Source: an uncultured Eubacteriales bacterium
Lineage (GTDB): Bacteria > Bacillota > Clostridia > Christensenellales > CAG-138
Assembly (NCBI GenBank): GCA_902765005.1
Contig: CACWYB010000008.1
Coordinates: forward strand, 1-64,000
Length of the DNA: 64,000 nucleotides
Direction of reading: 5' to 3'
Shown: piece by piece, positions 3,744 to 56,750 of the stretch
Layout of the letters: each line of letters begins with the position of its first letter
Position numbering within the stretch: the first letter of the stretch is position 1
The notes under the pieces: generated by a model
What the model was told of the DNA's origin: nothing
The model's database searches: none
Seen by the model: only the letters and a program-made list of their open reading frames with translations
Program-made: the position numbers and the translations under genes

Positions 3744-3836
3744 ACAGAAAAGCTTAGGAAGCCAAATGGCTTTAGCATCCTGAGCTTTTTCGTATTCCCG
3801 AAGATCTTTTGGGCAGCTTTCTTTCAAGAAAAGCTG
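3744..3836 (+). repeat. Composite hairpin repeat, copy 1 (modules B-C-D)
   Basis: Contains module B (AAAGCTTAGGA / TCCTGAGCTTT arms), module C (AAGATCTTTTGGGC) and module D hairpin (CAGCTTT CTTTCAAG AAAAGCTG). It lies between the convergent ends of mmdA and ftsH. The A hairpin seen in other copies is absent here. Confidence 0.75.
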
Positions 3837-3848
3837 TGAAGCAAAAGA

Positions 3849-5765
3849 TTATTCTTCCGTCTCCTCCGCCTTGGCGGGCAGGGCCACGGGCGCGTTCAGG
3901 ATGTCCATAAACTCCTGGCCCGTGATGGTCTCCCGCTCGATGAGCACCCGGGCGATCTCGTCCAGCTTGCCCCGGTTGTCCTTCAGAATGGTCTTGGCCT
4001 GCTCATAGGCTTTCTCAATGAGGCCGATGACCTCCCGGTCGATCCGGGCCGCCGTCTCCTGGGAGCAGTTCATGGCGGTGTCGTTGCCCAAATAGGGGTT
4101 CACCACCTGCTCGAAGGCGGTCATGCCGAAGCTCTCGCTCATGCCGTAGCGGGTGATCATGGCCCGGGCGATGGAGGTCGCCTGCTCGATGTCGTTGGAG
4201 GCGCCTGTGGTGATGGAGTGGAAGCACACCTCCTCCGCCGCCCGACCGCCGGTCAGGGTGACGATCTTGGCGAAGGCCTCCTGCTTATCCATCAAAAACC
4301 GCTCGTCCTCATCGGCCTGCATGGTGAAGCCCAGGGCTCCGGAGGTCCGGGGGATGATGGTGATCTTGTGGACCGGGGACGCCCCCTTCTGCTTGGCCGC
4401 CACCAGGGCATGGCCCACCTCGTGGTAGGCGATGATCTCCTTCTCATGCTGGGAGATGACCATGCTCTTGCGCTGCTTGCCGGCCAGGGCGACGTCCACG
4501 CTGTCCTCCAGATCCTTCTGGGTCACGGCGTGCCGGCCGGAGCGAACGGCGCACAGCGCCGCCTCGTTGATCACGTTGGCCAGGTCCGCGCCGCTGGCGC
4601 CGGGGGTGATCCGGGCGATGGCACTAAGGTCGATCTTCCCCTCGGTCTTGATCCGATTGCAGTGGATGCGCAGGATCGCTTCCCTGCCGCCCTGATCCGG
4701 GAGCTCCACGGGCACCCGCCTGTCGAACCGGCCGGGCCGCAGCAGGGCCTTGTCCAAAGATTCGGGCCGGTTGGTGGCCGCCAGGACCACCACGCCGGAG
4801 TTCCCCTCAAAGCCGTCCATCTCGGACAGCAGCTGGTTCAGGGTCTGCTCCCGCTCGTCGTTGCCGCCGAAGCCGTCCCGCTTCTTGCCGATGGCGTCGA
4901 TTTCGTCGATGAACACGATGCAGGGCGCCTTCTCCCGGGCTTCCTTAAAGAGGTCGCGGACCTTGGACGCGCCCATGCCCACGAACAGCTCCACAAACTC
5001 AGGCCCTGAGATGGAGAGGAAGGGCACGCCCGCCTCCCCGGCCACGGCCCGGGCCATGAGGGTCTTGCCCGTGCCCGGCGGGCCGATGAGCAGGGCGCCC
5101 CGGGGCATCCGGGCGCCGATCTCCGTGTATTCCTGGGGATTGTGCAGGTAGCTCACAATCTCCTGCAGGCTCTCCTTGGCCTCATCCTGGCCGGCCACGT
5201 CGGCAAAGGTGGTCTTCACCTGGCCGCCTTCCACGGTTCGGGCGTTGGATTTGCCCAGGCCGCCCATAAGGCCGCCGCCGGCGCCGATCTTGCCCATGCG
5301 CCGGAAAAAGAAGCTGAAAATCAGCACATAGAACAGAATGGGTACCGCATACTGGAGCAGCACCAGCAGGAGCATGTTCCCCGTGCCCGCGTTCTCCGAG
5401 AAGGTGACCCCCGCCTCATGGAGCCGGTTCACCAGATCCGGGTCGTTCATGGCGGTGACGGCATAGATCTTGGTCTTTTTGCTGCCGGCCATGGTGCGGA
5501 AGCTGAAGTTCAGCTGGGGCGCCGCCGTGGACGTCGGCTCCGCCTCGGGAAGCAGGGTGTAGTAAAGGGTGCCGCTCTTGAGCTCCACCTCCTTCACCTT
5601 GCCCTTCTCCAGCGCCTGGAGGAACACATCGTAGGTGACCTCCTCCTCGTTGGCGGAGGAAAGGGCGCTGGGCGCTCCCAGCCCCAGGAATAATATGATG
5701 ACGCCCAGCCCGACAAACAGCCAGAACCACAGCGGGCGGCGAGGTTTTGTTTGCTTTTCATCCAT
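3849..5765 (-). CDS. ftsH: ATP-dependent zinc metalloprotease FtsH
   Basis: A 638-residue membrane-bound AAA+ protease that degrades misfolded membrane and regulatory proteins. Order: membrane segment about residues 11-30, extracytoplasmic domain, second membrane segment 131-154, AAA domain with Walker A GPPGTGKT (228-235), Walker [10 protein letters not shown] and the second region of homology ending RPGRFDR, then the zinc protease with HEVGH (448-452). The start is the ATG giving [13 protein letters not shown], preceded by AGAGGG on the minus strand; the frame is open further upstream, but that part has no family similarity and overlaps plsC. It is transcribed alone, divergent from plsC. 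Confidence 0.97.
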
Positions 5766-5823
5766 AGAAATATCCCTCTTGCTGCCCGGATCCCTCATGG
5801 GCATCCGGTCTTTCGTTAGGGCT

Positions 5824-5852
5824 ATTGTATCAATAAAATGCGATAGAATCCA
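5824..5852 (-). promoter_or_regulatory. Putative ftsH promoter (extended -10)
   Basis: On the minus strand TGaTACAAT (hexamer 5824-5829) is an extended -10. The -35 position has only a weak TGGATT. It lies about 60 bp upstream of the ftsH start. Confidence 0.5.
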
Positions 5853-5952
5853 CCGCTTTTTCCATAAAAGAGCCCTCCATTGTAAAAAACTTGTGAAAAC
5901 CCGGCCCGAACCTTCTTCAATCGCCCGGCAACCTTCCTTTTTCCGCCAAACA

Positions 5953-5961
5953 TGGTATACT
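5953..5961 (+). promoter_or_regulatory. Putative plsC promoter (extended -10)
   Basis: TGGTATACT (hexamer 5956-5961) without a clear -35. It would start transcription near 5968, giving a 23-nt leader with a GAGGGAGG ribosome site before the ATG at 5991. Confidence 0.55.
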
Positions 5962-5990
5962 GTCTTCGTGAAAATTCGAGGGAGGCATCC

Positions 5991-6779
5991 ATGCTCTATC
6001 TCTATCTTGCCCTTAGCTTTGCCGCGGTCCTTGTCTTTGCCCGCAAGCCCATCCACTGCCCGCTCCTCTTTCTGGGCACCTTTCTGGCCCTGCTGCTCCT
6101 CCACGCCCTGGTGTTGGCCGTGGCGTCCCTGTTCGTGAACAAAAAGGACCCGGACCCCAGGCGCTTCTCCTTCTTCCGCAAGCTCCTGGTGGGGAGCATC
6201 CCCCTGCTGCTGCAGCTGGGCGGGATCCAGGTGAACCTTGTGGGGGCCAATGCCCTGCCTGAAGGGGGCTTCCTGCTGGTGGGCAACCACCGCTCCGACT
6301 TTGACCCCATCACCGCCATGTACGCCTTTGGCAAGCGAGGGCTCACCTTCGTCACCAAGAAGGAGAATGTGTCCATCCCCGTGGCCGGCCGGCTCATCGT
6401 GGGCGCCGGCTGCCTTTCCCTGGACCGGAACGACGACAAACAGGGTCTGCTGGTCATCCGCCAGGCGGTCCGCCGCATCCAAAAGGGGGAGGCCATCGGC
6501 ATCTACCCCGAGGGCACCCGCTCCAAAACCGGCGAGCTGCTCCCCTTTCGGGTGGGCTGCTTCAAGGCCGTCCAGTGGGCCAAATGCCCCTTGGTGGTCC
6601 TGAAGACCCGGGGCACGGAGCAGATCAAGCAAAACTTCTTCCTGCGCCGGACCCCTGTTACGCTGAACGTGGAGGCGGTGATCCCCTATGAGGAACTGGC
6701 GGACATGGATACCCAGGCCATCGGCCAACGGGTGCGGACCCTTTTGACGGAGGAAGGGGAAGGCAAATGGACCGAGTAA
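5991..6779 (+). CDS. plsC: 1-acyl-sn-glycerol-3-phosphate acyltransferase
   Basis: A 262-residue lysophosphatidic acid acyltransferase, adding the second acyl chain in phosphatidic acid synthesis at the membrane. Two N-terminal hydrophobic segments (about residues 1-15 and 22-45) precede the catalytic domain with NHRSDFDP (the HX4D motif) and YPEGTRSKTGELLPF (the EGTR motif). The ATG at 5991 is chosen because it follows GAGGGAGG at the right distance; an earlier in-frame ATG lies upstream of the predicted transcription start. Its last 13 bases overlap the following HAD gene, implying translational coupling. Confidence 0.92.
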   Translation: MLYLYLALSFAAVLVFARKPIHCPLLFLGTFLALLLLHALVLAVASLFVNKKDPDPRRFSFFRKLLVGSIPLLLQLGGIQVNLVGANALPEGGFLLVGNHRSDFDPITAMYAFGKRGLTFVTKKENVSIPVAGRLIVGAGCLSLDRNDDKQGLLVIRQAVRRIQKGEAIGIYPEGTRSKTGELLPFRVGCFKAVQWAKCPLVVLKTRGTEQIKQNFFLRRTPVTLNVEAVIPYEELADMDTQAIGQRVRTLLTEEGEGKWTE

Positions 6780-7417
6780 AAAACATTCTCTTCGACCTGG
6801 ACGGCACCCTGACGGACCCGGCCGAGGGCATTACCAACTCCCTCATGCACGCCCAGCGCCGCCTGGGCCGGCCGGTGAGCCCCCGGGAACAGCTCTACGT
6901 GTTCATCGGCCCGCCCCTCATCGAAACCTTCATGAGCGAGTGGGGCCTCAGCCATGCCGAGAGCGAGCAGGCCCTGGTCTATTACCGGGAATATTTCACC
7001 GCCCGGGGCATCTTTGAAAACGATCCCTATCCGGGCATCGAGGCCTTCCTCGCCCAGCTGAAGGCCGCCGGCTTCCGGCTCTTTGTGGCCACCTCCAAGC
7101 CGGAGCCCCTGTCCCTGCGCATATTGGAGCACTTCGGCCTGATGCCCTATTTTGAGGGGCTGGCCGGCTCCACCATGGACGAAAAGCGCACAAAAAAGGG
7201 CGAGGTCATTGCCTACGCCCTGAAAACCTTTCAGTTGGACCCCGCCGAAACCATCATGGTCGGCGATCGGAAGCACGATGTGGAAGGCGCCCGGGAGAAC
7301 GGGCTCCCCTGCGTCGGCGTCCTCTACGGCTACGGCTCCCGGGAGGAGCTCGCCGCCGCCGGCGCCGCGGCCTTGGCGGAGGACCTTTCGGCCCTGGCCT
7401 CCTTGCTCAAGTCATAG
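6767..7417 (+). CDS. HAD-superfamily hydrolase, phosphoglycolate-phosphatase-like
   Basis: A 216-residue HAD phosphatase with all four motifs: ILFDLDGTLTDP (nucleophile D10 and acid D12), VATSKPEP (motif II), the lysine in KRTKKGE (motif III) and VGDRKHDVEGA (motif IV). The helical cap between motifs I and II places it with the GPH/PGP-like small-molecule phosphatases, which dephosphorylate sugar phosphates, phosphoglycolate or nucleotides; the substrate cannot be named. It overlaps the end of plsC by 13 bp and starts after GGAGGAAGGGGAAGG. Its last 88 bases are also coding, on the opposite strand, for the end of the Na/Pi transporter gene. Confidence 0.88.
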   Translation: MDRVKNILFDLDGTLTDPAEGITNSLMHAQRRLGRPVSPREQLYVFIGPPLIETFMSEWGLSHAESEQALVYYREYFTARGIFENDPYPGIEAFLAQLKAAGFRLFVATSKPEPLSLRILEHFGLMPYFEGLAGSTMDEKRTKKGEVIAYALKTFQLDPAETIMVGDRKHDVEGARENGLPCVGVLYGYGSREELAAAGAAALAEDLSALASLLKS

Positions 7418-9198
7418 ATCCCGGTGGAGAACTCCCCCGTTTCCAGATCATACTTCTCTTTATACACCTCAAAATACTTGTTGAAGCTGTCGGACTGAAC
7501 CTCCCGCAGGCTGTTCAGATACTCATGGGTATCGAAGGCCCCGGTCTCCAGCTCGATCATGGCCACAGCGATGTTGGAGCAGTGGTCCGCCACCCGCTCC
7601 AGATCCGTGATCAGATCGTTGAACACGAACCCCTGGTCCAGCGTGCATTCTCCCCGCTGGACCCGGTTCACGTGGTGGAGCTTCAGCTCGTCGCAGAGCA
7701 TGTCGATCATTTCCTCCAAGGGCTCCACCCGGTAAGCATCCCCTACGCTCTCCCGCTCAAAGGCGCCCATGGACAGATGGACGATCTCCTCCACGGCGGC
7801 GATGAGGGCGTTCAGCTCCCGCTTGGCCTCATAGGAGAACACCACCTTCTTTTCTGCGATCTCCTTGGCGGCCTCCCCCACGTTCATGGCGTGGTCGCTG
7901 ATGCGCTCGATGTCGCTGATGCAATGGAGGAACTTGCTGATCTCCTTGTTCTGGCTCCGGGTCAGCTCCTGCCGGTTCACCTTCACCAGATAGGTCCCCA
8001 GCTTGTCCTCATAGGTGTCCACCTGGTTCTCCAGCCGCTCCACCGCTGCATACTCTGCGTCGGACCAGGCGGAGAGGAGCTTCAGCGCCCGGGTCAGGTT
8101 CTCCTCGGCGGTGTCCGCCATCTTGGCCAGGACGATCCGGCTCTGCTCGATGGCCAGGGTGGGGTGAACGATGAACCGCTCCTCCAGCCGGTCGATCATG
8201 GCCTGCTGGACAAGGTCCTCCGGCCTATCCTTCACCAGCCGGTGGACCAGACGCCTGAGGCCGTTGATGAAGGGCAGCAGCACCGCCGCCGCCAGGACCC
8301 GGAACACGGAGTTGATCAGCGCCAGCTCCACGGGCCCCACCACCCGGCGCACCAGGCTTTCCGGCAGCAGGCCTCTGGCGATGAGGAAGGGCACCAGGCA
8401 GATCATGGTGCCCAGCACGTTGATGAACAGATAGGTGAGGGCGGTCCTGCGGCCGCTGGGCCCGGCGCCGATGGCCCCCAGCAGCACCGGCGCCGAGGCG
8501 CCGATGGCGATGCCCATGATGATGGGGATGGCCGCTTCCGCCGTGATGGCCCCGGTCATGGACAGGGCCTGCAGAATGCCCACCGCCGCCGAGGCGCTTT
8601 GGAGCACCGCCGTGAAGACGGCGCCCACCAGGATGCCCAGCAGGGGGTTGTCAAACAACAGCAGCAGTTCCCGGAATTTGGTGCTCTCCCGCAGGGGCAG
8701 CACGGCGTCGCTCATGGCGCCCATGCCGAACATGAGCACGGCGAACCCCAGCAGAATGTCTCCCACGTGCTTCTTCACCGTGGTCTTGGCCGTCATGCGC
8801 ATGATCGTGCCCACGATGGCCACCAGAGCGGTGATGGTGGTGGTAGAGAACAGGGACACCCAGCCCCCGCCGCCGCCCAGGAGCGACAGGCACAGGATCC
8901 AGCCCGTGACGCTGGTGCCCACATTGGCTCCCATGATGATGGGGATGGCTTGGACCCCCTTCATCATGCCGGAGTTCACGAAGCCCACCACCATGATGGT
9001 GGTGGCCGACGAGCTTTGGATGGCCGCCGTCACGCCCAAGCCCAGCAGCACCCCCTTAAGCGGCGTGCTGCTCAGCCGCCAGAGGGTCACTTCCAGCTTG
9101 TTCCCGGCCACGCGCTTGAGCCCGTCCCCCATGACAGCCATGCCGAAAAGGAACAGGGACACACCGCTCAGCAGGGAGAAAATATTATGTATACCCAT
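7330..9198 (-). CDS. Na+/phosphate cotransporter family protein with C-terminal PhoU-like domain
   Basis: A 622-residue polytopic membrane protein. The N-terminal half has two inverted Na/Pi-cotransporter repeats, each with the QSSSAT / QSASAAVG signature (IQSSSATTIMVVGFVNSG and LQSASAAVGILQALSMTG) among eight or more hydrophobic segments. The C-terminal third, from about residue 330, is a charged helical PhoU-like domain (ADTAEENLTRAL, HCISDIERISDHAMN, ITDLERVADHCSNIA). The family imports phosphate with sodium, or in some members regulates export. The last 30 residues are Ala/Ser/Arg-rich low-complexity sequence, and it is this tail that overlaps the convergent HAD gene by 88 bp. Confidence 0.92.
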   Translation of the reverse strand: MGIHNIFSLLSGVSLFLFGMAVMGDGLKRVAGNKLEVTLWRLSSTPLKGVLLGLGVTAAIQSSSATTIMVVGFVNSGMMKGVQAIPIIMGANVGTSVTGWILCLSLLGGGGGWVSLFSTTTITALVAIVGTIMRMTAKTTVKKHVGDILLGFAVLMFGMGAMSDAVLPLRESTKFRELLLLFDNPLLGILVGAVFTAVLQSASAAVGILQALSMTGAITAEAAIPIIMGIAIGASAPVLLGAIGAGPSGRRTALTYLFINVLGTMICLVPFLIARGLLPESLVRRVVGPVELALINSVFRVLAAAVLLPFINGLRRLVHRLVKDRPEDLVQQAMIDRLEERFIVHPTLAIEQSRIVLAKMADTAEENLTRALKLLSAWSDAEYAAVERLENQVDTYEDKLGTYLVKVNRQELTRSQNKEISKFLHCISDIERISDHAMNVGEAAKEIAEKKVVFSYEAKRELNALIAAVEEIVHLSMGAFERESVGDAYRVEPLEEMIDMLCDELKLHHVNRVQRGECTLDQGFVFNDLITDLERVADHCSNIAVAMIELETGAFDTHEYLNSLREVQSDSFNKYFEVYKEKYDLETGEFSTGIYDLSKEARAERSSAKAAAPAAASSSREP

Positions 9199-9235
9199 TG
9201 ATCCATCCTTGCTTCATAAATTGCGCTTATGTTAC

Positions 9236-9264
9236 AGTATACACTATCCTTCCCCCCGGCGCAA
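9236..9264 (-). promoter_or_regulatory. Promoter of the Na/Pi cotransporter gene
   Basis: On the minus strand TTGCGC (9259-9264), a 17-bp spacer, then TATACT (9236-9241), about 38 bp before the ATG. Confidence 0.6.
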
Positions 9265-9278
9265 CTTTCTTTTTCCCC

Positions 9279-9307
9279 TTGCGCCGCCGAGGGAAAAAAT
9301 ATATAGT
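9279..9307 (+). promoter_or_regulatory. Promoter of the zinc-ribbon acyltransferase gene
   Basis: TTGCGC (9279-9284), 17-bp spacer, TATAGT (9302-9307). Predicted start near 9314, leaving a 23-nt leader with AAGGAGG before the ATG at 9337. Confidence 0.6.
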
Positions 9308-9336
9308 AAGGGGAAAGACGAAGGAGGATGGACACC

Positions 9337-10494
9337 ATGGCGGAGGACGAGCGGGCATATCAGCGGCAGAAGAGGGCATACCGGTTTTTGTTTCCCCTGG
9401 CCAAGGCGGCCATGGGGCTGCTGCTCAATTATCGGGCCACCCCGGCGCCGAAAACGGAAGGGCCCTGCCTGATCCTCAGCAACCACGCCACGGATTATGA
9501 CCCCATCCTGGTGGGGCTCAGCTTCCCCCAGCACATGTACTATGTGGCCGGGGAGAACGTGATGCGCATGGGCTTTCTCTCCAAGATCGTCAATCGCTAC
9601 GCCTCCGTGATCCAGCGGCTCAAGGGCACCACCGACGCGGAGGCCGCCCTGCAGATCCTGCGGACGCTGAAAAAGGGCCGAAACGTGTGCATGTTCGCCG
9701 AGGGGAGCCGAACCTTCACCGGGGCCACCCTGCCCATCGCCCCGGCCACCGCCAAGCTGGTGAAGCTGTCCCGCAGCACCCTTGTCACTTACAAGCTCAC
9801 CGGCGGGTATCTCACCTCCCCCCGCTGGAGCACCCACCGCCGCAAGGGGCGCATGACCGGCGCCGTGGTGGGCGTGTATCCGCCGGAGGTATTGAAACAG
9901 ATGAGCGAGGCGGAGATCCTTTCCCTGCTCGCCCGAGATCTGCATGAAAACGCCTACGAGACCCAGGCCAAAGAGCCCATCCCCTTTCGAGGGAAAGCCC
10001 TGGCCGAGACCCTGGAGACCGCCCTGTACCTCTGCCCCCAGTGCCACCGGATCGACAGCCTCCACAGCCGGGATAACCGTTTTTTCTGCGACTGCGGCCT
10101 GTCGTTGTCCCTGGACGAATACGGCTTCTTTCAGGGAGAGAGCGTGCCCTTCGCAACGCCCCTTGCCTGGGACGCCTGGCAGCAGGAGGAAATGGAGCGC
10201 CTGTCCCGAAGCCTGGGGGAGGCGCCGGCCTTCTCCGATGCGGACCAGACCCTGAACCGGAAGGAGGCGGACCACTCCCTGACACCGCTCACCACCGGCC
10301 TCATGGCCCTCTACCGGGACAGGCTCACCATCGGGGATCGGGCATTCCCCCTAAAGGAACTGCGGGGCATCGGCCTCATCCAGCGCCAGGGCATGGTCTT
10401 TTCCACCGCCGACGGGGACTATGCCGTCACCGCCCCCCGCCTGCGCTGCGTGCGCAAGTATCAGACCTTGTTTGAGTTTTTAAAGGAAGGATAA
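9337..10494 (+). CDS. PlsC-type acyltransferase with C-terminal zinc ribbon and PH-like tail
   Basis: A 385-residue protein. Residues about 15-215 are a lysophospholipid-acyltransferase domain with NHATDYDP (HX4D) and AEGSRTFTG (EGSR variant of EGTR). After it comes a possible zinc knuckle (LYLCPQCHR and FFCDCGLSLS, four cysteines at about residues 233-255), and then a beta-rich segment (LMALYRDRLTIGDRAFPLKE to DGDYAVTAP) that resembles a bacterial PH/GRAM-like module; the latter is a judgement by eye. The ATG at 9337 is preferred over one nine bases earlier because AAGGAGG lies nine bases before it. Catalysis of acyl transfer is likely; the added domains may bind a partner or membrane. Confidence 0.82.
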   Translation: MAEDERAYQRQKRAYRFLFPLAKAAMGLLLNYRATPAPKTEGPCLILSNHATDYDPILVGLSFPQHMYYVAGENVMRMGFLSKIVNRYASVIQRLKGTTDAEAALQILRTLKKGRNVCMFAEGSRTFTGATLPIAPATAKLVKLSRSTLVTYKLTGGYLTSPRWSTHRRKGRMTGAVVGVYPPEVLKQMSEAEILSLLARDLHENAYETQAKEPIPFRGKALAETLETALYLCPQCHRIDSLHSRDNRFFCDCGLSLSLDEYGFFQGESVPFATPLAWDAWQQEEMERLSRSLGEAPAFSDADQTLNRKEADHSLTPLTTGLMALYRDRLTIGDRAFPLKELRGIGLIQRQGMVFSTADGDYAVTAPRLRCVRKYQTLFEFLKEG

Positions 10495-10503
10495 TAAGCC
10501 TGA

Positions 10504-10647
10504 TCCTTTTTCTTGAAAGAAAAAGGACCAAAAAGAACTTTAACCAAATAAATAGCTTAGGAAATCTGATCTGTTAGACTTCCTAAGCTTCTCTTTTTTG
10601 CGCCGCTTTTTTCTCCTTCACCGAAGAGAAAAAAGCGGCAAAAGAAA
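10504..10647 (-). repeat. Composite hairpin repeat, copy 2 (complete, reverse orientation)
   Basis: Read on the plus strand as D-C-B-A: hairpin TCCTTTTTCTTG / AAAGAAAAAGGA (10504-10527), the C box AAAGAACTTT, the B hairpin with AGCTTAGGA / TCCTAAGCT, and hairpin A with GCCGCTTTTTTCTC / GAGAAAAAAGCGGC (10602-10639). It fills the gap between two convergent genes. Confidence 0.85.
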
Positions 10648-10653
10648 CCCCTC

Positions 10654-12380: not shown

Positions 12381-12386
12381 CCGTTC

Positions 12387-12415
12387 ATGATACCACAGGG
12401 AGAAAAAAGAAACAA
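12387..12415 (-). promoter_or_regulatory. holA promoter, positioned for a leaderless transcript
   Basis: On the minus strand TTGTTT (12410-12415), 17-bp spacer, TGgTATCAT with the hexamer at 12387-12392. Only six bases separate the -10 from the holA ATG (12380), so +1 falls on the start codon. Confidence 0.65.
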
Positions 12416-12503
12416 CCGGATTTCAAATATATTCCCGGCCATGAAAAGGGGCCGAAGGCGCCCCGGATCGCAAAAAAAGATGCGCAAATCCTGAAAAAAG
12501 CCC

Positions 12504-12532
12504 TTGCAATCGGGAAAAGTGTGTGCTATATT
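12504..12532 (+). promoter_or_regulatory. rpsF-ssb-rpsR promoter
   Basis: TTGCAA (12504-12509), 17-bp spacer, TGcTATATT with hexamer 12527-12532. A strong promoter, as expected for ribosomal-protein genes; predicted start near 12539. Confidence 0.8.
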
Positions 12533-12544
12533 ATTACGGCTAAC

Positions 12545-12584
12545 GGTCCTTCTTGCTTTCTGAAGACAAGAAAGCCAACAGACC
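12545..12584 (+). promoter_or_regulatory. Structured 5' leader, candidate S6:S18 autoregulatory element
   Basis: In the roughly 62-nt leader GGTC (12545-12548) can pair with GACC (12581-12584), enclosing a hairpin TTCTTG (12550-12555) / CAAGAA (12567-12572) and an asymmetric loop AGCCAACA, directly before the ribosome site AAGGAGG. The known S6:S18 leader motif has a stem with a C-rich asymmetric bulge at this place; the match is by position and general shape only. Confidence 0.4.
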
Positions 12585-12600
12585 ATAAGGAGGTGAAAGA

Positions 12601-12888: not shown

Positions 12889-12964
12889 GCTTCCGGGGAG
12901 CATCAGGCAAACCGTGAACACGACCCGACAGAACAAGCACGAGAGATTTTAAGAGAGGTATAGC

Positions 12965-13393: not shown

Positions 13394-13422
13394 CTTATAA
13401 AATTTATTAGGAGGCTTGCACC

Positions 13423-14386: not shown

Positions 14387-14395
14387 GGAAAAGAG

Positions 14396-15218: not shown

Positions 15219-15468
15219 GCGACTTTTTCTTTTCGGTGAGTGCGGAGCCGAATGCTGCCGGTGGCAGATGCAGCGAGGCGCAGCACGGGCAAAGCAACGA
15301 GAAAGCAAGCGGCAGCACAGCTTTCGACTATGCTTTGCCCATAGCAGAGAAAAAGTCGCCCAAAAAGAAAAGCGTAGGAAAACCAATGGGATAGAACTCC
15401 CAAGCCATTTCGTATTCTTAAAGTTCTTTGGGCCTGCACCCTTTCTTTCAAGAAAGGGTGCGGGCTTT
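15219..15468 (+). repeat. Composite hairpin repeat, copy 3, with an expanded A loop
   Basis: Module A arms GCGACTTTTTCT (15219-15230) and AGAAAAAGTCGC (15348-15359) are 117 bp apart instead of about 11. A decayed B module (AAAGCGTAGGA), the C box AAAGTTCTTTGGGCC (15420-15434) and a perfect D hairpin GCACCCTTTCTTT / AAGAAAGGGTGC (15436-15461) follow, the last with a T-rich tail that may act as terminator. Confidence 0.8.
15253..15340 (+). repeat. Interleaved inverted repeats inside the expanded hairpin (possible pseudoknot)
   Basis: TGCTGCCG (15253-15260) pairs with CGGCAGCA (15310-15317), while GGGCAAAGCA (15287-15296) pairs with TGCTTTGCCC (15331-15340). The two perfect pairs are interleaved rather than nested. 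A local CTGCC-GGT-GGCAG hairpin at 15255-15267 competes with the first pair. Confidence 0.6.
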
Positions 15469-15536
15469 TATTATATTCCTTTCTTTGAACAAACGGTAAA
15501 AAATCAAGAAAAACCGGACAGATAGGGCACAAGGTG

Positions 15537-21087: not shown

Positions 21088-21104
21088 GTTCGCGAGCTTG
21101 GGTT

Positions 21105-21240
21105 GCCGCTTTTTTCTCTTCCGTGAAGAGAAAAAAGCGGCACAGAAAAGAGAAGCTTAGGAAAGAAAAATGGCTTCGCAAACATAGCTATACAGTTGGT
21201 CAAAGTTCTTTTACACAGCTTTTCTTTCAAGAAAAGCTGT
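21105..21240 (+). repeat. Composite hairpin repeat, copy 4 (A, partial B, C, D)
   Basis: Perfect A hairpin GCCGCTTTTTTCTCTTC / GAAGAGAAAAAAGCGGC (21105-21141), left arm of B (AGAAGCTTAGGAAA), C box CAAAGTTCTTTTA, and a perfect D hairpin ACAGCTTTTCTTT / CAAGAAAAGCTGT (21215-21240). It lies between two genes in the same direction and ends 35 bp before the next start. Confidence 0.85.
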
Positions 21241-21275
21241 TAATTATAAATTATTCCACATAAAAAGGAGCAATC

Positions 21276-26919: not shown

Positions 26920-26968
26920 ACAGGAGAGCAGTTGCTGCACGCATTTTATTCTGAAAACTGTGCAGCCT

Positions 26969-27078
26969 AAAGATCTTTACGAACACAAAAAGCTCAGGAA
27001 TCCTAATTCGTTAGTCTTCCTGAGCTTTTCTTTTTCTGCGACTTTTTCTTTTCACTGAAAAGAAAAAGTCGCAAAAAC
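26969..27078 (-). repeat. Composite hairpin repeat, copy 5 (C-B-A, reverse orientation)
   Basis: C box AAAGATCTTTACG (26969-26981), B hairpin AAAAAGCTCAGGA / TCCTGAGCTTTTC (26987-27029) and perfect A hairpin GCGACTTTTTCTTTTC / GAAAAGAAAAAGTCGC (27038-27072). It lies between convergent genes; D is missing. Confidence 0.85.
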
Positions 27079-41721: not shown

Positions 41722-41733
41722 TCATTCTTCTTC

Positions 41734-41866
41734 GCGACTTTTTCTTTTCAGTGAAAAGAAAAAGTCGCCCAAAAAGAAAAGCTTAGGAGTCTAATGAATT
41801 AGATGTCCTAAGCTTTTTATTATGAAAAAGTTCTTTTGGGCCCCTTCTCTTTCCCAAGAAGAGGGG
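41734..41866 (+). repeat. Composite hairpin repeat, copy 6 (complete A-B-C-D)
   Basis: Perfect A hairpin GCGACTTTTTCTTTTC / GAAAAGAAAAAGTCGC (41734-41768); B hairpin AAAAGCTTAGGA / TCCTAAGCTTTT (41777-41817) whose loop pairs further (TCTAAT / ATTAGA); C box AAAGTTCTTTTGGGCC; degenerate D (CCCTTCTCTTT / AAGAAGAGGG). It lies between convergent genes and could act as a terminator in both directions. Confidence 0.88.
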
Positions 41867-41886
41867 CGAAGCCTTCCATAGGTCCC

Positions 41887-43580: not shown

Positions 43581-43619
43581 GGGGGGAGCCGTCCTGCAAG
43601 CTTGGCATTTGGTTCTGTT

Positions 43620-43673
43620 GTTCCTTTTCTCTTCCGTGAAGAGAAAAGGAACCGAAAAGAGAAGCTCAGGAAG
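43620..43673 (+). repeat. Composite hairpin repeat, copy 7 (A and left arm of B)
   Basis: Perfect A hairpin GTTCCTTTTCTCTTC / GAAGAGAAAAGGAAC (43620-43652), then GAGAAGCTCAGGAAG, the left arm of B. The rest is missing. Confidence 0.8.
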
Positions 43674-43876: not shown

Positions 43877-44656
43877 TCATCCCGCCTTTTTCCCCTGCTC
43901 CTCCATCAAGAGCTTGTCCGCCACCAGGGCGATGAACTCTCCGTTGGTGGGCTTGTCATTCTTGCCGTAGATGTTGTAGCCGAATAGGGCGTTCAGGTTT
44001 TCGATCTTGCCCCGGGTCCAGGCCACCTCGATGGCGTGGCGGATGGCCCGCTCCACTTTGCTGGGGGAGGTGTCGAACCGCTTGGCGATGCCCGGGTACA
44101 GCTCTTTGGTGATCCGGTTGATGAGATCCGGGTCGTTGTACACCAGTCGGATGCCCTCCCTGAGGTAGTGATAGCCCTTGATGTGGGCCGGGATGCCCGC
44201 CACCAGGAAGATGGCGGTCACCTTCTCCTCAAAGGACCGGTGGGTGGGGGCGTAGGGCATGACGCCCCCCTTCACCGGCTCTCCTTCCAGCGTCTCCAGC
44301 AGGCGTTTGCTGATCGTGTCCGCGTCCACAGGCTTCACCATATAATATCGGGCCCCCAGCGCGCAGCACCGGCGCACCATGGCCTCGTTCTTTAATGCGG
44401 AAATCACCACCACAGCCGGCGCCGGGTTCAGCGGCAGCACCGACATCTGCTCCAGCACCGCCAGCCCGTCCGCGTTGGGCATGATGAGGTCCAGCGTCAT
44501 CACGTCATAGGTCTTCTCCCTGAGCTTCTTCAGCGCCTCCCGGCCGTCCTGGGCGGTGTCCACCTCGCTGAACCGGTCCTGGCTCAGCAGATACCCCTTC
44601 ACGCTCTCGGTGAACTGGGTGTTGTCGTCGATCAAAAGAGCTTTGTACTTTGCCAT
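43877..44656 (-). CDS. spo0A: Sporulation transcription factor Spo0A
   Basis: A 259-residue response regulator, master switch of sporulation. Receiver domain with the acidic pocket LLIDDN (D10, D11), phospho-acceptor D56 in MTLDLIMPNADG, and ISALKNEA / YMVKPVD. The C-terminal Spo0A domain has VAGIPAHIKGYHYLREGIRL, ITKELYPGIAKRFDTSPSKVERAIRHAIEVAWTRGK-type helices and KPTNGEFIALVADKL. The start at 44656 follows AAGGAGGAAGG; an upstream frame extension lacks similarity. Its usual neighbour spoIVB is not adjacent. The presence of Spo0A argues that the organism is, or descends from, a spore-former. Confidence 0.97.
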   Translation of the reverse strand: MAKYKALLIDDNTQFTESVKGYLLSQDRFSEVDTAQDGREALKKLREKTYDVMTLDLIMPNADGLAVLEQMSVLPLNPAPAVVVISALKNEAMVRRCCALGARYYMVKPVDADTISKRLLETLEGEPVKGGVMPYAPTHRSFEEKVTAIFLVAGIPAHIKGYHYLREGIRLVYNDPDLINRITKELYPGIAKRFDTSPSKVERAIRHAIEVAWTRGKIENLNALFGYNIYGKNDKPTNGEFIALVADKLLMEEQGKKAG

Positions 44657-44691: not shown

Positions 44692-44801
44692 TCCCCCTCC
44701 CCAACTGGTTAGAGTGCAAATTCAGCGACCCCTGGCGAATGGATAGCGAATAAAGGAAGGTGGCGGCATAGGAGGTTATTTAGGGGCATAGCTTTTCTTT
44801 T

Positions 44802-44857
44802 GTTCCTTTTTCTCTTCTGTGAAGAGGAAAAAGGAACCGAAAAAGAGAAGCGCATAG
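44802..44857 (+). repeat. Composite hairpin repeat, copy 8 (A and decayed B arm)
   Basis: A hairpin GTTCCTTTTTCTCTTC / GAAGAGGAAAAAGGAAC (44802-44837, one G-T pair), then AAAAGAGAAGCGCATAGG, a changed left arm of B. Confidence 0.75.
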
Positions 44858-45887: not shown

Positions 45888-45909
45888 CTTGTTAAGTTTC
45901 TCTTTTTCC

Positions 45910-45954
45910 GCCGCTTTTACTCTTTGTATAAAGAGAAAAAGCGGCAAAAGAAAT
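45910..45954 (-). repeat. Composite hairpin repeat, copy 9 (A only)
   Basis: Hairpin GCCGCTTTT...CTCTTT / AAAGAG...AAAAGCGGC (45910-45945) followed by AAAAGAAA, matching module A in reverse orientation. It sits immediately after the PAP2 gene stop (minus strand). Confidence 0.7.
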
Positions 45955-48841: not shown

Positions 48842-48880
48842 GTTTCGTCTATCCTTTCTGTTTCCTTTTGCTTCGCCCCA

Positions 48881-52321: not shown

Positions 52322-52914
52322 GCCTCGCCCTGGCTCTGCCGGGGATTCTTCTCGTGGCGCTTGTTGAACCGGCTCTGGGCTCCCTCCACGTCCCCCTTCA
52401 CCATCATCTCCGCCGCATCCGCCGCCTTCTCATAGGCCTCCCGGAGCAGCTGCTGCTCCTCCTTGCCGGGGCACTTGAGCACATAATCCCGCAGCTGGAG
52501 CGACACGTCCTGTCCCGCCCCGATCCGGATCCGGGCAAAGTTCTCCGAATTCAGGCAGGCGATGATGCTCTTTAGACCGTTGTGGGTGCCGGCGGACCCC
52601 CTGGCCCGGATGCGCATGCTGCCGCAGGGCAGATCCACGTCGTCGCAGAGGACGATCAGCTTTTCCGGGGGCAGCTTATAAAAGTGCATCACCTGCTGGA
52701 GGCAGTCGCCGCTCAGGTTCATATAGGTCTGGGGCTTCACCAGGATCACCCGCTCGCCGTTTAGCTCGCCCTCGCCCAGCAGGCCCGAAAATTTCTTGTC
52801 CTTTATCTTAACCCCGATCCGATCGGCGATCACGTCCAGAGCCATGAAGCCGATGTTGTGGCGGGTCTTTCGATAGCTCAGCCCGGGGTTGCCTAATCCC
52901 GCGATCACGTACAT
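52318..52914 (-). CDS. pth: Peptidyl-tRNA hydrolase
   Basis: A 198-residue Pth that frees tRNAs from dropped-off peptidyl-tRNA. It has the N-terminal VIAGLGNPGLSYRKTRHNIGF with catalytic histidine H20, VKPQTYMNLSGDCLQQVM, VLCDDVDLPCGSMRIRARGS and GTHNGLKSIIACLNSENFAR. It begins 19 bp after rsmG and overlaps mfd. Confidence 0.97.
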   Translation of the reverse strand: MYVIAGLGNPGLSYRKTRHNIGFMALDVIADRIGVKIKDKKFSGLLGEGELNGERVILVKPQTYMNLSGDCLQQVMHFYKLPPEKLIVLCDDVDLPCGSMRIRARGSAGTHNGLKSIIACLNSENFARIRIGAGQDVSLQLRDYVLKCPGKEEQQLLREAYEKAADAAEMMVKGDVEGAQSRFNKRHEKNPRQSQGEA

Positions 52915-52933
52915 ACTCTTTATCTCCTACTCG

Positions 52934-53620
52934 TTATAGAGGTCTCTTGTTGGGGGTCCCGGCCTTCCGGGGGTACGCCTTGGGGGTGGGCTCCGTCTTC
53001 TCCGCGAGCACCAAACAGCGCTTCCCCAGCGGGGAATTCAGCTCCTCCATCCGCAGCTTCACATGGAGCAAAAAGGCCGCCGATTTGGCGTTTTTCAGCT
53101 CCTCCGCTCCGTCCCCCTTATAGGCGATGGCCGTGCCGCCCACCCGCACGAAGGGCGTGGTCAGCTCCAGCAACACCGGCAGGTTCGCCACCGCTCGGGA
53201 CACCGCCGCGTCAAACTTCTCCCGATAGAGCCGGTTCTGCCCCAGATCCTCCGCCCGGCCGTGGACCAGCGTCGCCTTCAGGTCCAGCTCACGGAGCAGA
53301 GCCTCCAAAAAGGTCAGCCGCTTCTGCAGGCTGTCCGCCAGCGTCAGCTCCAGCTTCGGCTCCATGATGAGCAGGGGCACCCCGGGGAACCCGGCCCCGG
53401 TACCCACGTCGATGACCTTCATGCCCGCTTTCAGATAGGGCAGGGCCGCCAGGGAATCGGCAAAATGCTTCTGGGCCACCTCCTCGGGGTCCGTGATGGC
53501 GGTCAGGTTCATCCGCTCGTTCCATTCCCCCAGCAGCCTTTGATAGATCTCAAACCGCTCCAGCGCCCGCTCGTCCGCTTCCGGCAGGGCCTTTTTCAGC
53601 AGCGCCCGTATTTCGCTCAT
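52934..53620 (-). CDS. rsmG: 16S rRNA (guanine-527-N7) methyltransferase
   Basis: A 228-residue RsmG/GidB: the N-terminal helix LERFEIYQRLLGEWNERMNLTAI and SAM-binding VIDVGTGAGFPGVPLLI, then LVHGRAEDLGQ, FDAAVSRAVANLPVLLEL and the basic C-terminal RKAGTPNKRPL. Overlaps mnmG by ATGA. mnmG-rsmG next to parAB is the usual origin-region neighbourhood. Confidence 0.97.
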   Translation of the reverse strand: MSEIRALLKKALPEADERALERFEIYQRLLGEWNERMNLTAITDPEEVAQKHFADSLAALPYLKAGMKVIDVGTGAGFPGVPLLIMEPKLELTLADSLQKRLTFLEALLRELDLKATLVHGRAEDLGQNRLYREKFDAAVSRAVANLPVLLELTTPFVRVGGTAIAYKGDGAEELKNAKSAAFLLHVKLRMEELNSPLGKRCLVLAEKTEPTPKAYPRKAGTPNKRPL

Positions 53621-55509
53621 AGCATCCCCCGTTTCTGGGCCACCAGCAGCACGCTCACGTCCGCCGGGGACACCCCCGAAATGCGGGACGCCTGGCCGAT
53701 GCTGGTGGGTTTTATCCCGTTCAGCTTCTGCCGGGCCTCCAGGCGAAGGCCGGACAGGCTGCCGTAATCAAACTCCTTCGGCAGGCTCAGCGCTTCCAGG
53801 CTTCGCATCCGCTCCACCTCCCGCCGTTCCTTCTCAATATATCCGTCGTACCGGGCCATGACCTCGATCTGCTCCATTGTCTCCCGGTCCAGCGGGTCCA
53901 GATCGTCCCCGTACAGCGCCAGCAGGTCCGTGTAGCTGACCCCCGGGCGCTTCAGCAGCTCAAAGAGCCTGGCCCCGTCGTGTGGCACGCTTTGGCCCAC
54001 GCGCTCCAGGTACCCTCGCAGCTTCTCGTCCGCGTTCACATGCTTGTCCAGCTTCGTCCGGGCCTCGGCCACTTTCTCCCGCTTTTTGAGCAGCTTTTCA
54101 TACCGCTCATCTGAAATAAGCCCCGTGCGCCGTGCCTTTTCCGTGAGCCGCAGGTCCGCGTTGTCCTGCCGGAGCAGGAGCCGGTATTCGCAGCGGGAGG
54201 TCATCATCCGATAGGGCTCCGGAGTCCCCTTGGTCACCAGGTCGTCCACCAGCACCCCCAGATACCCTTCGTCCCGGCCCAGGATAAAGGGGGCCTCCCC
54301 CTTCACATACAGCGCCGCGTTCACCCCGGCGTAAAAGCCCTGGGCGGCGGCCTCCTCATAGCCGGAGCTGCCGTTGATTTGCCCGCCGGAGAATATGCCC
54401 GGTATGCCTTTCACCATCAGGCTCAGATCCAACGCCTGGGGGTCCAGGCAATCGTATTCGATGGCGTAGCCGTAGCGCATGATCTTCGCCCGTTCCAGCC
54501 CCGGGATGGTGTGGAGCATCTCCTCCTGCACATCCGCCGGCAGGCTGGTGCTCAGCCCCTGAACGTACATCTCCTGGGTGGTCCGACCCTCGGGCTCGAT
54601 GAACAGCTGGTGCCGGTCCTTGTCCGCGAACTTCACCACCTTGTCCTCGATGGACGGGCAGTAGCGGGTCCCTGTGGCGTGGATGCGCCCGGCATAGAGG
54701 GGGGACCGGTTCAGGTTATCCAAGATGATCCGGTGGGTGTCCCGGTTCGTATAGGTTAGGTAGCATCGATCCTGATCGAGATGCAGCTCCCCATGGAGGA
54801 AGGAGAAGGCCGGCGTGGGCTCGTCCCCCTCCTGAACGGCCATTTTATCCAGGTCCAGGGTGTCCCGCTTCACCCGGGGAGGCGTGCCGGTCTTGAACCG
54901 GCGCAGCGGCAGACCGATCCTTGCCAGATTCCCGGAAAGGCCTTCGCTTCGGAGCATGCCGCTGGGGCCGCTTTCCCGCATGAATTCGCCGATGAGAATG
55001 CGGCTCTGCAAATACACTCCCGTGCACAGCACCGCCGCCCGGCAAGGGTAGCAAAAGCCCTCCGCCGTGACCACGCCGGACAGGCGCCCGCCCTCCGTTT
55101 CAAAATCCACGGCCTCGCTTTGGATCAGGGTCAAATTCTCCTCCGCCTCCAAAGCCGCCTTCATCCGCTCGTGATACCGGCGCTTGTCCATCTGCGCTCG
55201 CAGGGAATGGACCGCCGGGCCCTTGCCCGTGTTCAGCATGCGCATTTGGATCAGGGTGTCGTCCGCCGCAAGGCCCATTTCGCCCCCCATGGCGTCCAGC
55301 TCCCGGACCAGGTGCCCTTTCCCCGTGCCGCCGATGGAGGGGTTGCAGGGCATCATGCCGATGCTGTCCAGATTCAAGGTCAGCAGGGCCGTCTTCAGTC
55401 CCATTCGGGCGCAAGCCAAGGCCGCTTCGCAGCCCCCGTGTCCCGCGCCGATGACCACGCAGTCAAAGCTTTCTCCCCTGAGGGGTTTGGTTGTCCATCC
55501 GTTGCTCAT
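53617..55509 (-). CDS. mnmG: tRNA uridine-5-carboxymethylaminomethyl modification enzyme
   Basis: A 630-residue MnmG/GidA flavoprotein that with MnmE modifies wobble uridines. FAD-binding CVVIGAGHGGCEAALACARMG, then NPSIGGTGKGHLVRELDAMGG, CPSIEDKVVKFADKDRHQLF, GIFSGGQINGSSGYEEAAAQG and the C-terminal RISGVSPADVSVLL. First gene of the long minus-strand series ending at PAP2. MnmE is not in the window. Confidence 0.98.
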   Translation of the reverse strand: MSNGWTTKPLRGESFDCVVIGAGHGGCEAALACARMGLKTALLTLNLDSIGMMPCNPSIGGTGKGHLVRELDAMGGEMGLAADDTLIQMRMLNTGKGPAVHSLRAQMDKRRYHERMKAALEAEENLTLIQSEAVDFETEGGRLSGVVTAEGFCYPCRAAVLCTGVYLQSRILIGEFMRESGPSGMLRSEGLSGNLARIGLPLRRFKTGTPPRVKRDTLDLDKMAVQEGDEPTPAFSFLHGELHLDQDRCYLTYTNRDTHRIILDNLNRSPLYAGRIHATGTRYCPSIEDKVVKFADKDRHQLFIEPEGRTTQEMYVQGLSTSLPADVQEEMLHTIPGLERAKIMRYGYAIEYDCLDPQALDLSLMVKGIPGIFSGGQINGSSGYEEAAAQGFYAGVNAALYVKGEAPFILGRDEGYLGVLVDDLVTKGTPEPYRMMTSRCEYRLLLRQDNADLRLTEKARRTGLISDERYEKLLKKREKVAEARTKLDKHVNADEKLRGYLERVGQSVPHDGARLFELLKRPGVSYTDLLALYGDDLDPLDRETMEQIEVMARYDGYIEKERREVERMRSLEALSLPKEFDYGSLSGLRLEARQKLNGIKPTSIGQASRISGVSPADVSVLLVAQKRGML

Positions 55510-55532
55510 ATGCGCATACTCCTATGTATAGC

Positions 55533-55561
55533 AGTATAGCATAGCTTTTCCCATTCTACAA
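55533..55561 (-). promoter_or_regulatory. mnmG operon promoter
   Basis: On the minus strand TTGTAG (55556-55561), 17-bp spacer, TGcTATACT with the hexamer at 55533-55538; the leader has AGGAG. Confidence 0.75.
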
Positions 55562-55570
55562 TCTTCCTGT

Positions 55571-55598
55571 TTGCTATCGGGCGAAAATCTGCTATACT
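55571..55598 (+). promoter_or_regulatory. Promoter of the YhaM-like gene
   Basis: TTGCTA (55571-55576), 16-bp spacer, TGcTATACT with hexamer 55593-55598. Its -35 lies 9 bp from that of the divergent mnmG promoter. Confidence 0.7.
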
Positions 55599-55640
55599 AT
55601 ATTTATGTATCGCAGGTCTTGATTTGGGAGGGATCGAAAC

Positions 55641-56591
55641 ATGAGCCGAATGAATCTTTTGAATGAACCCGGCCAGCAGACGGAAGGGTTTTGCATGGTG
55701 AAGAGCGCCGCCGTGCGCACAGACAGCAAGGGCGGCGCTTACATGGACATGGTCCTGGCGGACGCCGGCGGCGAATGCGTGGCCAAGATCTGGAATTACG
55801 GCCCCTCCATGGGCATGTACGAGCCGGAGGACATCGTCAAGGTCCGGGGCGTGGTCACCATCTGGAAGGACAGCGAGCAGCTAAAGATCGAGCGCATCCG
55901 CCAGGCCACGGAAGCGGACCAGGTGGACATGTCCCGGATCGTCCCCTGCTCCCCCCAGGACCCCCACGCCGCCTACGAGCTCCTCTGGCAGGAAACGGAA
56001 GCTTTCCGGGATCAGGATCTCAAGCGCCTGGTCCAATATCTCATGAAGGAGCATAAGCAGCAGATGCTCTACTACCCTGCCGCCGTCAAGCTCCACCACG
56101 CCACCCGGGGCGGCTTTTTGGAGCACACATTGAACATCGTCTCCCTGGGCAAGGCCGTGGCCGCCCGCTACCCGGAGCTGGACGCCGAGCTCATCGTGGC
56201 CGGCGCCATCCTCCACGATGTGGGCAAGCTCTCCGAGCTGGCCACCGGCAAGCTTGGCATCGCCACCGCCTACACCCCCGAGGGCCAGCTCCTGGGGCAC
56301 ATCAACATCGGCATGGCCGAGGTCCGCTCCGCCGCGGAGCTCCTCCAGATCCCCGAGGAGACCGCCGTCCTCCTGGAGCACATGCTCCTCTCCCACCACG
56401 GCCAGCCTGAATTCGGCTCCCCTAAGCTCCCCATGTTCCCGGAGGCGGAGGTCCTCTCCGTCATGGACCGTCTGGACGCCCAGCTCTTTGAAATGTTCTC
56501 CGCCCTGGACGGCGTCATGAAGGGTGGCTTCTCCGAGCGCCAGTGGGCCCTGGACAACCGCCAGCTCTACCAGCACGGGCGGAAACTTTAA
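55641..56591 (+). CDS. OB-fold/HD-domain 3'-5' exoribonuclease, YhaM-like
   Basis: A 316-residue protein. Residues about 12-100 form an OB-fold (GFCMVKSAAVRTDSKGGAYM, VKVRGVVTIWKDSEQLKIER) and residues 150-300 an HD phosphohydrolase domain: KLHHATRGGFLEHTLNIVSL, the metal-binding GAILHDVGKLSELA, and LLSHHGQPEFGSPKLPMFPE. The combination is that of YhaM/CBF1 exonucleases, which degrade RNA and can help DNA replication control. It is alone between a divergent promoter and repeat copy 10; the ribosome site is GGGAGG. Confidence 0.9.
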   Translation: MSRMNLLNEPGQQTEGFCMVKSAAVRTDSKGGAYMDMVLADAGGECVAKIWNYGPSMGMYEPEDIVKVRGVVTIWKDSEQLKIERIRQATEADQVDMSRIVPCSPQDPHAAYELLWQETEAFRDQDLKRLVQYLMKEHKQQMLYYPAAVKLHHATRGGFLEHTLNIVSLGKAVAARYPELDAELIVAGAILHDVGKLSELATGKLGIATAYTPEGQLLGHINIGMAEVRSAAELLQIPEETAVLLEHMLLSHHGQPEFGSPKLPMFPEAEVLSVMDRLDAQLFEMFSALDGVMKGGFSERQWALDNRQLYQHGRKL

Positions 56592-56608
56592 AGGAATAAT
56601 TAAAGCAC

Positions 56609-56750
56609 GCACCCTTTCTTGAAAGAAAGGGTGCAACCCCAAAGAACTTTACCCAAGCAAAAAGCTTAGGACATCTAATTCATTAGATTCCTAAGCTTTT
56701 TTTTGCGCCGCTTTTTTCTCTTCACCGAAGAGAAAAAAGCGGCAAAAGAA
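56609..56750 (-). repeat. Composite hairpin repeat, copy 10 (complete, reverse orientation)
   Basis: D hairpin GCACCCTTTCTTG / AAAGAAAGGGTGC (56609-56634), C box CCAAAGAACTTT, B hairpin AAAAGCTTAGGA / TCCTAAGCTTTT (56659-56700) with inner pairing, and perfect A hairpin GCCGCTTTTTTCTCTTC / GAAGAGAAAAAAGCGGC (56707-56743). It fills the gap between convergent genes; the B hairpin with its eight T residues looks like a good terminator for the upstream gene. Confidence 0.9.

Follow-up and report, generated by a model that had tools for sequence, protein, structure and literature searches.

A repeat family at gene ends

The window analyzed here comprises positions 1 to 64,000 of contig CACWYB010000008.1 (C8), one of 45 contigs in the 2,376,722-base, 77% complete genome (G000) of an uncultured Eubacteriales bacterium. 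Behind ftsH and several other genes of the window lie copies of a hairpin repeat that is about 155 bases long when complete. An initial annotation of the same DNA had placed the repeat in ten intergenic gaps, divided it into modules A to D, and left four functions open: a non-autonomous mobile element, a bidirectional terminator, an RNA-processing site, or a site for a nucleoid protein. The first two, taken together, fit our results best: this dispersed repeat is probably a REPIN-like non-autonomous mobile element, and its central stem is predicted to stop transcription in both directions.

The repeat family is real, exceeds chance, and is larger than first described. The genome was scanned with covariance models built from copies in the window and elsewhere in the genome: 20 sequences went into the model of the A unit and 21 into that of the combined C and D unit (C+D). 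With 150 candidates scored per model, and once reverse-strand readings of palindromes and most of the weak D matches had been discarded, at least 128 places remained, complete or partial: 74 A-D pairs, 11 inverted A-A pairs, 25 lone A units, 15 lone D units, and 3 mixed arrangements. Family sequence is present at all ten places of the window, which are ten of this total. E values reach about 1e-17, with the qualification that the sequences used for model building match by construction. The spread is genome-wide, and relatives were matched as well.

The boxes of the repeat are A/T-rich, as a chance similarity of intergenic DNA would have it, but shuffled and backward controls yielded no or almost no matches. 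The C box, at up to two mismatches, occurs five times in the window; shuffled sequence averages 0.24, and none of 100 shuffles reached five. The A core, at up to three mismatches, has 12 matches in the window (both strands of a near-palindrome counted) and none in 100 shuffles, while the exact C box is found 15 times in the genome and its backward control not once. We therefore give chance likeness in A/T composition, which the initial annotation had named as the outcome that would undo it, practically no weight. No Rfam family matched above its gathering score in the window, and a tRNA search found none.

Most copies lie at gene ends. In the window they occupy six of seven convergent gaps, three of 35 tandem gaps, and one of seven divergent gaps, one spurious overlapping gene pair having been dropped (convergent versus other gaps, Fisher p 1e-4); the gyrB-like and amidohydrolase genes to the right of copies 15219 and 21105 are plus-strand genes confirmed by Pfam. 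Among the 128 places, for which genes were called with a simple gene finder, 57 are convergent, 62 tandem, and 6 divergent, and 3 lie at stretch edges. A stop codon falls within -16 to +11 nucleotides of the unit edge in 59 of 89 D units; for A units, the distance to a gene end is at most 20 nucleotides in 82 of 119. The statement that copies never lie inside genes is nearly right, but the conserved D tail (approximately AGAGGAAGGATTGAAAGC) often overlaps the last codons and itself contains the stop codon. The gene ending at 10494, read by hand, terminates in FEILKRNC in a related species without the copy (G011) and, where the copy is present, in FEFLKEGI (G006) or FEFLKEG (G000), each directly before the stop.

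The density of copies varies strongly among contigs longer than 50 kb, from 13 to 20 per 100 kb in C7, C24, C26, and C8 to 1.1 to 1.5 in C3 and C1 (chi-square p 2e-12). A stretch of 320 kb from five copy-poor contigs, with 31 convergent pairs called, contains no unit by either model, and the convergent gaps viewed there hold mostly short plain terminators, many within 50 to 75 bases.

Within the window (Table 1), the modules appear as A-B-C-D at 10504, 21105 (weak B), 41734, and 56609, and also at 15219, where B is weak and a second repeat interrupts A. Copy 3744 is B-C-D with the A unit missing, copy 26969 has A-B and a broken D, and copies 43620, 44802, and 45910 retain A plus remnants only. 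Both orientations and copies that lack end modules, as described initially, are seen among them. The second repeat is about 110 bases long (GGGTGCGAAGCCGAGCGCTGCC...GGGCAAAACA...TGTTTTGCCC). All eight of its copies found in 722 kb of this genome, a sample enriched for copies, sit within an A or D hairpin, either in the loop or in an arm; by its positions the second repeat appears to target these hairpins. Between two degenerate copies, at 43880-44656, lies a Spo0A-like sporulation regulator (Pfam Spo0A_C and Response_reg).

Table 1. Coordinates and strands of repeat units and associated features in the window
Feature	Position	Strand	Remarks
Plain terminator stem GGCCCGCC-GAAA-GGCGGGCC, retained next to copy 3744	3700..3719	+	In relative G007, a terminator of this kind stands alone
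Copy 3744, central stem B	3748..3790	+	
Copy 3744, C box and D hairpin unit	3792..3852	+	E 2.9e-9; adjoins ftsH stop codon
Copy 10504, C box and D unit	10488..10549	-	E 7.1e-11; tail AAAGGAAGGA contains the final codons, with the stop codon, of the gene that ends at 10494
Copy 10504, A hairpin unit	10581..10643	-	E 2.5e-14; clamp GCCGC
Copy 15219, A hairpin	15219..15359	+	Clamp GCGAC; split by the second repeat
Copy 15219, C box and D unit	15412..15476	+	E 1.3e-11
Copy 21105, A hairpin unit	21101..21162	+	E 8.6e-15
Copy 21105, C box and D unit	21194..21255	+	E 4.3e-11
Copy 26969, broken D unit and central stem B	26955..27017	-	Approximate limits
Copy 26969, A hairpin unit	27018..27077	-	E 2.5e-17; clamp GCGAC
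Copy 41734, A hairpin unit	41729..41788	+	E 6.7e-17; clamp GCGAC
Copy 41734, central stem B, AAAAGCTTAGGA...TCCTAAGCTTTTT	41777..41818	+	Flanked by an A-run and a T-run
Copy 41734, C box and D unit	41819..41882	+	E 6.2e-9
Copy 43620, lone A unit	43615..43671	+	E 4.8e-13; clamp GTTCC
Copy 44802, lone A unit	44797..44857	+	E 1.2e-13; clamp GTTCC
Copy 45910, lone A unit	45890..45950	-	E 6.2e-13; clamp GCCGC
Copy 56609, C box and D unit	56594..56658	-	E 6.7e-11
Copy 56609, A hairpin unit	56689..56747	-	E 2.8e-14; clamp GCCGC
Second repeat, ~110 bases	~15238-15346		Other sites: C1:148581, C2:2784, C3:365856, C19:26276, C25:22344, C26:11244, C26:26601

Anatomy of the element and pairing of its clamps

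From its outer edge inward, the A unit consists of a clamp of about five pairs (GCCGC, GCGAC, GTTCC, and others), an inner hairpin whose commonest form is CTTTTTCTYTTC-NGTG-GAARAGAAAAAG, and then CCCAAAAAGAAAAGCTTAGGAA. Followed inward in the same way, the D unit is a hairpin that has a variable clamp and the inner sequence CTTTTCTTGAAAGAAAAG, after which comes CCCAAAAGAACTTTAGGAA. Each unit has an inner stem that varies little, an outer clamp that varies with its arms matched, and a box of the CCAAAAGAA type directed inward. D units read in reverse are matched by the A model (for example, at L202 2515-2565 on the minus strand, 30.8 bits, where D lies at 2519-2555 on the plus strand), so A and D are related units placed in inverted orientation. 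What had been described as four modules in fixed order is accordingly a plan of unit, stem, and unit: the former C box is the flank of D and the former B is the stem between the units. The order holds in the A-D pairs (74 of 128 places) but not in the 11 A-A inverted pairs.

The units are 30 to 33 nucleotides apart in 70 of the 74 A-D pairs, and the sequence between them differs among copies; the middle is either the B stem or a different stem at the same position. Compared with dinucleotide shuffles, the central stem has a z score below -2 in 52 of the 74 complete copies. By a script that evaluates folds and U-tracts, 50 of the 74 middles have a minimum free energy of -10 or lower and a U-rich stem edge on both strands, and in these 50 copies the central stem is a predicted bidirectional terminator. 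The script replaced a generic terminator scan (18 terminators, compared with 12.9 on average after shuffling) that had missed the central stem at 41777-41818. A units in multi-unit places score higher than lone A units (median 73.3 bits, n = 97, versus 64.1 bits, n = 25; p 0.003).

For the analysis of covariation, rows from 70 D and 66 A copies were anchored at the loop (four D and eight A rows were unusable), and arms were exchanged among copies 1,000 times with the copies treated as independent. D pairs 1 to 6 vary little, and D pairs 7 to 12 use up to four Watson-Crick types. The latter are Watson-Crick in 53 to 66 of 70 copies against shuffled means of 31 to 55, and A pairs 11 to 15 are so in 56 to 62 of 66 against 28 to 49 (shuffled means include G-T); none of the 1,000 shuffles reached the observed values in either unit. 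Among the stems tested genome-wide, Watson-Crick pairing was perfect in 95 of 129 for A and in 50 of 57 for D. The matching change in the other arm is thus the rule, but not invariable as had been stated: the D of copy 3744 and the A of copy 10504 bear a one-base bulge or mismatch, and the D of copy 26969 is broken. Single-defect A stems (n = 32, some units perhaps counted twice because of the near-palindrome) carry G-T in 15 cases and A-C in 7, a difference that proved too weak to decide between pairing as RNA and pairing as DNA.

The initial annotation took the matched changes to mean that the fold is selected and not the sequence. Pairing is indeed kept far above shuffled levels, yet sequence is conserved too, in the inner stem and in the CCAAAAGAA box. 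The fold is kept, and covariation alone does not prove that selection is its sole keeper, because replacement of whole units or arm-templated repair could likewise keep the arms matched. Such an origin of the matching, through arm-templated repair of quasi-palindromes or conversion of a whole unit from another copy and with no selection on the fold, is possible, though we find it somewhat doubtful. It agrees with stems that are mostly perfect Watson-Crick with few G-T pairs. Behind ftsH, the right halves of the copies in G001 and G006 are nearly identical and the left unit and inner stem differ, as whole-unit replacement predicts; and in G147 and G390, of a distant group, clamps GATAC/GTATC and GTGAC/GTCAC at the same gene end differ by two double transversions. 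Conversion alone, however, cannot create new clamps, and at least 19 different five-base D clamps, several occurring once only, were counted among 46 fully paired copies. Nor does a mechanism that keeps arms matched account for the repetition of the unit at gene ends.

Gene ends compared across species

Orthologs were sought in the 12 genomes of the genus (G000 to G011) and their 3' sequences compared, so that filled and empty sites are compared between species rather than strains. The gene ending at 56591 is followed by the same next gene in eight species: D-B-A stands between them in G000, G001, G006, G010, and G005, A-B-A in G003, and only a plain terminator in G011 and G007. Where the next gene is another one or the region is rearranged, G009 has B-A and G008 and G004 have a terminator-like stem without a copy; the G002 sequence is cut off. 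Behind ftsH (gene end 3849), G000 has a copy together with the old type of terminator that G007 has alone, and G001, G006, and G005 have A-B-A with the second repeat nested in the right unit. No copy was seen there in G003, G004, G008, G010, or G011, and the sequences of G009 and G002 are cut off. In G004 (L262), an array of short alternating units, AAGTGATGTATGCGCCTAAGGGCGC and AAGTGATGTATGGCCGCGATGCGGCC, each with a small inverted repeat, stands where the copy would be.

Behind the phosphoglucomutase gene, copies are present in G000, G003, G004, and G005 (with a broken D in the last) and a remnant in G010; none was found in G001, G006, G008, G009, or G011, and the sequences of G007 and G002 are cut off. 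The same site in G001 (L247 1199-1409 minus) and G006 (L248 1199-1363 minus) carries a plain terminator and, beyond it, a cobalamin riboswitch (RF00174; 97.6 bits in G001, 91 in G006). At 58846, A-D is found in G001, G006, and G003 and, by eye, B-C-D in G011, with none in G000 and G005. The genes ending at 10494 and 27085 are neighbors in G006, with a copy between them, and in G011, where their stops are about 14 bases apart and there is no copy. In G000 they lie about 16 kb apart with a copy at each end; G006 and G011 lack the intervening segment at this locus. Filled and empty versions of the same site therefore exist at gene ends 56591, 3849, 10494|27085, and 58846.

These differing states at one gene end, together with the dispersal of copies and their occurrence in both orientations, favor the mobile element among the functions first listed. 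Five of the seven synteny breakpoints of the window, judged by eye, fall at copies; the hypergeometric p is 0.002 over all gaps and 0.14 over convergent and divergent gaps only, and the association is suggestive only.

Beyond this genome, the D unit has a wide but patchy distribution, with fewer or weaker matches in other phyla. The C+D model matches all 12 genomes of the genus at E 1e-6 (3 to 78 matches each) and 16 of 103 genomes of the family, the four outside the genus having one or two weak matches. Its core was found in at least 111 stretches of named genomes, and most among the 80 listed are metagenome-assembled genomes (MAGs) of Oscillospiraceae or Clostridia(les). Outside the genus, the core is usually AAAGTTCTTTTGG plus TTACTTTTCTTTCAAGAAAAGTAA, without A and often after another hairpin that differs by lineage. 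Counted at E 0.01, where some matches may be reverse readings of one palindrome, there are 146 in Oscillibacter sp. ABMPRH_166_1, 107 in Emb289P1bin98, 69 in E16 bin22, 20 in Pseudoflavonifractor An184, 17 in SIG577, and 6 in a Nitrospinota MAG that is possibly misbinned. Among plasmids, an Ilyobacter megaplasmid has 6 matches and a Parabacteroides plasmid 1; records of Burkholderia and Acinetobacter and the genomes G147 and G390 have none with this model. The 48 matches in G290 are of doubtful quality and may partly reflect A/T-rich composition, the loci viewed being without a clear unit.

The versions in Ilyobacter and Parabacteroides read GAACTTTTGGTTACTTTTCTTTCAAGAGAAAAGTAAC. Searches with the commoner C+D core gave E 3e-5 for Ilyobacter (22 places) and 9e-5 for Parabacteroides, and E 4e-3 or weaker for Acinetobacter, Burkholderia, and Leptospira, where chance or convergence may account for the matches. 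The C+D unit of copy 10504 against plasmids (best E 0.1) and the whole of copy 56609 against phages (best E 0.5) gave unconvincing matches. A looser pattern, the hairpin core plus CCAAAAG, occurs in four of 398 genomes of the phylum, including this one, and its backward control gave 0 matches in every row listed. Seven loci were viewed in G147 and G390; in all but one of them (L336), the core starts 11 to 15 nucleotides past the stop codon of an open frame. Clamps are varied in these genomes, and further matched stems follow the core. Two of their loci, L333 in G390 and L335 in G147, have a three-stem array at the same gene end, in which the first stem differs and its arms still match.

Origin of the family and relation to known repeats

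An alternative to transposition is that the copies are host-owned elements of gene ends, such as bidirectional terminators or hairpins of mRNA 3' ends, which spread by duplication and gene conversion and are selected as RNA folds. The concentration of copies in convergent window gaps is what such elements would show, as are the nearly unchanged orthologous copies of G001 and G006 and one ortholog whose inner stem stays paired through changes (GGATTGTGG/CCACAGTCC, GGGACTGCGG/CCGCAGTCCC, GGGATTGTGA/ACAACCCC). However, a plain terminator, often of 50 to 75 bases, suffices in other convergent gaps of the same genome, so the long element is not needed, and copies in both orientations also stand between tandem genes and directly before ribosome-binding sites. 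The middles are terminator-like on both strands in only 50 of 74 copies, and the excess of G-T over A-C defects amounts to a weak preference for RNA pairing at best. We thus regard a host-owned origin as unlikely. Binding sites for an architectural DNA-binding protein or an RNA-binding protein would explain the conserved sequence of box, inner stem, and loop and the nearly constant spacing of the units, but such sites would hardly range in density from 1.1 to 20 per 100 kb among contigs or differ among species at the same gene end, and we consider this reading very improbable. The analyses made, which included no search for a binding protein, lent no support to RNA-processing or nucleoid-protein sites.

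A mobile element with a terminator-like middle could arise as follows. An enzyme acting in trans would recognize the inner stem, the loop, and the CCAAAAGAA box as folded single-stranded DNA; since it would read these inner parts, the outer clamp would only have to pair. Copies landing behind stop codons would survive because nothing is broken there, and the middle of the element would then terminate transcription for both neighboring genes in place of the plain terminator, which would afterwards be lost. Single units would be decay products.

Mobility is likely from the sequence comparisons, and we infer it rather than observe it because neither a target duplication nor a mobilizing enzyme was found. 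Several results weigh against the mobile element. PF01797 (Y1_Tnp) is absent from the 77% complete genome, in a search confined to this transposase family; it occurs in two of the 12 genus genomes, and those 3-kb loci hold no clear unit by either model (best E 0.12). The four flanks of 55 of the 74 complete copies (the others were not anchored by the script) contain GTAG 0 times and its complement CTAC 2 times, and CGTC once and its complement GACG 0 times. Lone D units fit the model no worse than paired ones (64.1 bits, n = 14, versus 63.5 bits, n = 70; p 0.61), and 24 of the 74 complete copies fall outside the predicted class of bidirectional terminators. No target-site duplication was visible in compared stretches that are only about 80 to 96% identical. 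Finally, three orthologous complete copies in G001 and G006, which are about 95% identical, show 0, 3, and 4 differences and have not moved, so any movement is not fast.

More tentatively, and with clearly less confidence than in mobility itself, the family might extend across phyla as an undescribed set of mobile gene ends: hairpins that combine exchangeable clamps with a CCAAAAGAA box and are mobilized by an enzyme distinct from the known REP transposases. Inserted behind stop codons in place of local terminators, they would provide breakpoints at which whole transcription units could be shuffled without loss of termination.

BOX elements of pneumococcus are modular hairpin repeats in intergenic DNA, with modules and a host that differ from those described here. 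In open-licence full text, we found no paper on REPIN with RAYT in Firmicutes or on intergenic palindromic repeats of Oscillospiraceae, and the open-licence papers that contain the core letters are, judged by title, not about bacterial repeats. Bidirectional intrinsic terminators with compensatory evolution have arms that change together as they do here (PMC5381666), but in our family the terminator-like stem is just the middle of a dispersed 155-base repeat that is absent from other gaps and species. Insertion sequences that target REPs (PMC1525189) resemble the second repeat that sits in A or D hairpins, although at about 110 bases the latter is too short for a transposase gene.

The closest likeness is to REP and REPIN sequences. 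REPINs are doublets in inverted arrangement, with a set distance between their units and a spacer in which length and pairing are preserved (PMC3116915). Our repeat shares with them inverted, related palindromic units at a fixed distance, compensatory changes, extragenic position, lone units, and a spacer kept in length and pairing rather than in sequence. The REPs tagged with GTAG or CGTC are many-copy palindromes that, according to PMC3733652, lie mainly between convergent and unidirectional open reading frames, close to gene ends or across them, and may even provide the stop codon, all of which recurs here. There are also differences. Neither tag stands at our units, and the box next to the hairpin is CCAAAAG. 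The extent to which REP transposases depend on the GTAG motif has been shown (PMC8266576). No linked RAYT/Y1 transposase was found, the inner stem and box are conserved and the outer clamp is variable, the central stem resembles a bidirectional terminator, and lone D units are no more decayed, unlike REP singlets. Because there is no tag, no RAYT near any unit, and no greater divergence of lone D units, we call the family REPIN-like and do not file it as REPIN.

By analogy, the family can be regarded as a variant of the REP/REPIN kind, new in its other tag, its matched and changing clamps, and the terminator predicted at mid-element. The REP and REPIN work cited here rests on GTAG- or CGTC-tagged repeats and RAYT, and here the same inverted-doublet plan occurs with another tag and no linked RAYT. 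The family thus lets one ask, as in a natural experiment, which part of a hairpin is read by a mobilizing enzyme, and how repeats of this plan may come to occupy gene 3' ends in uncultured gut Clostridia.

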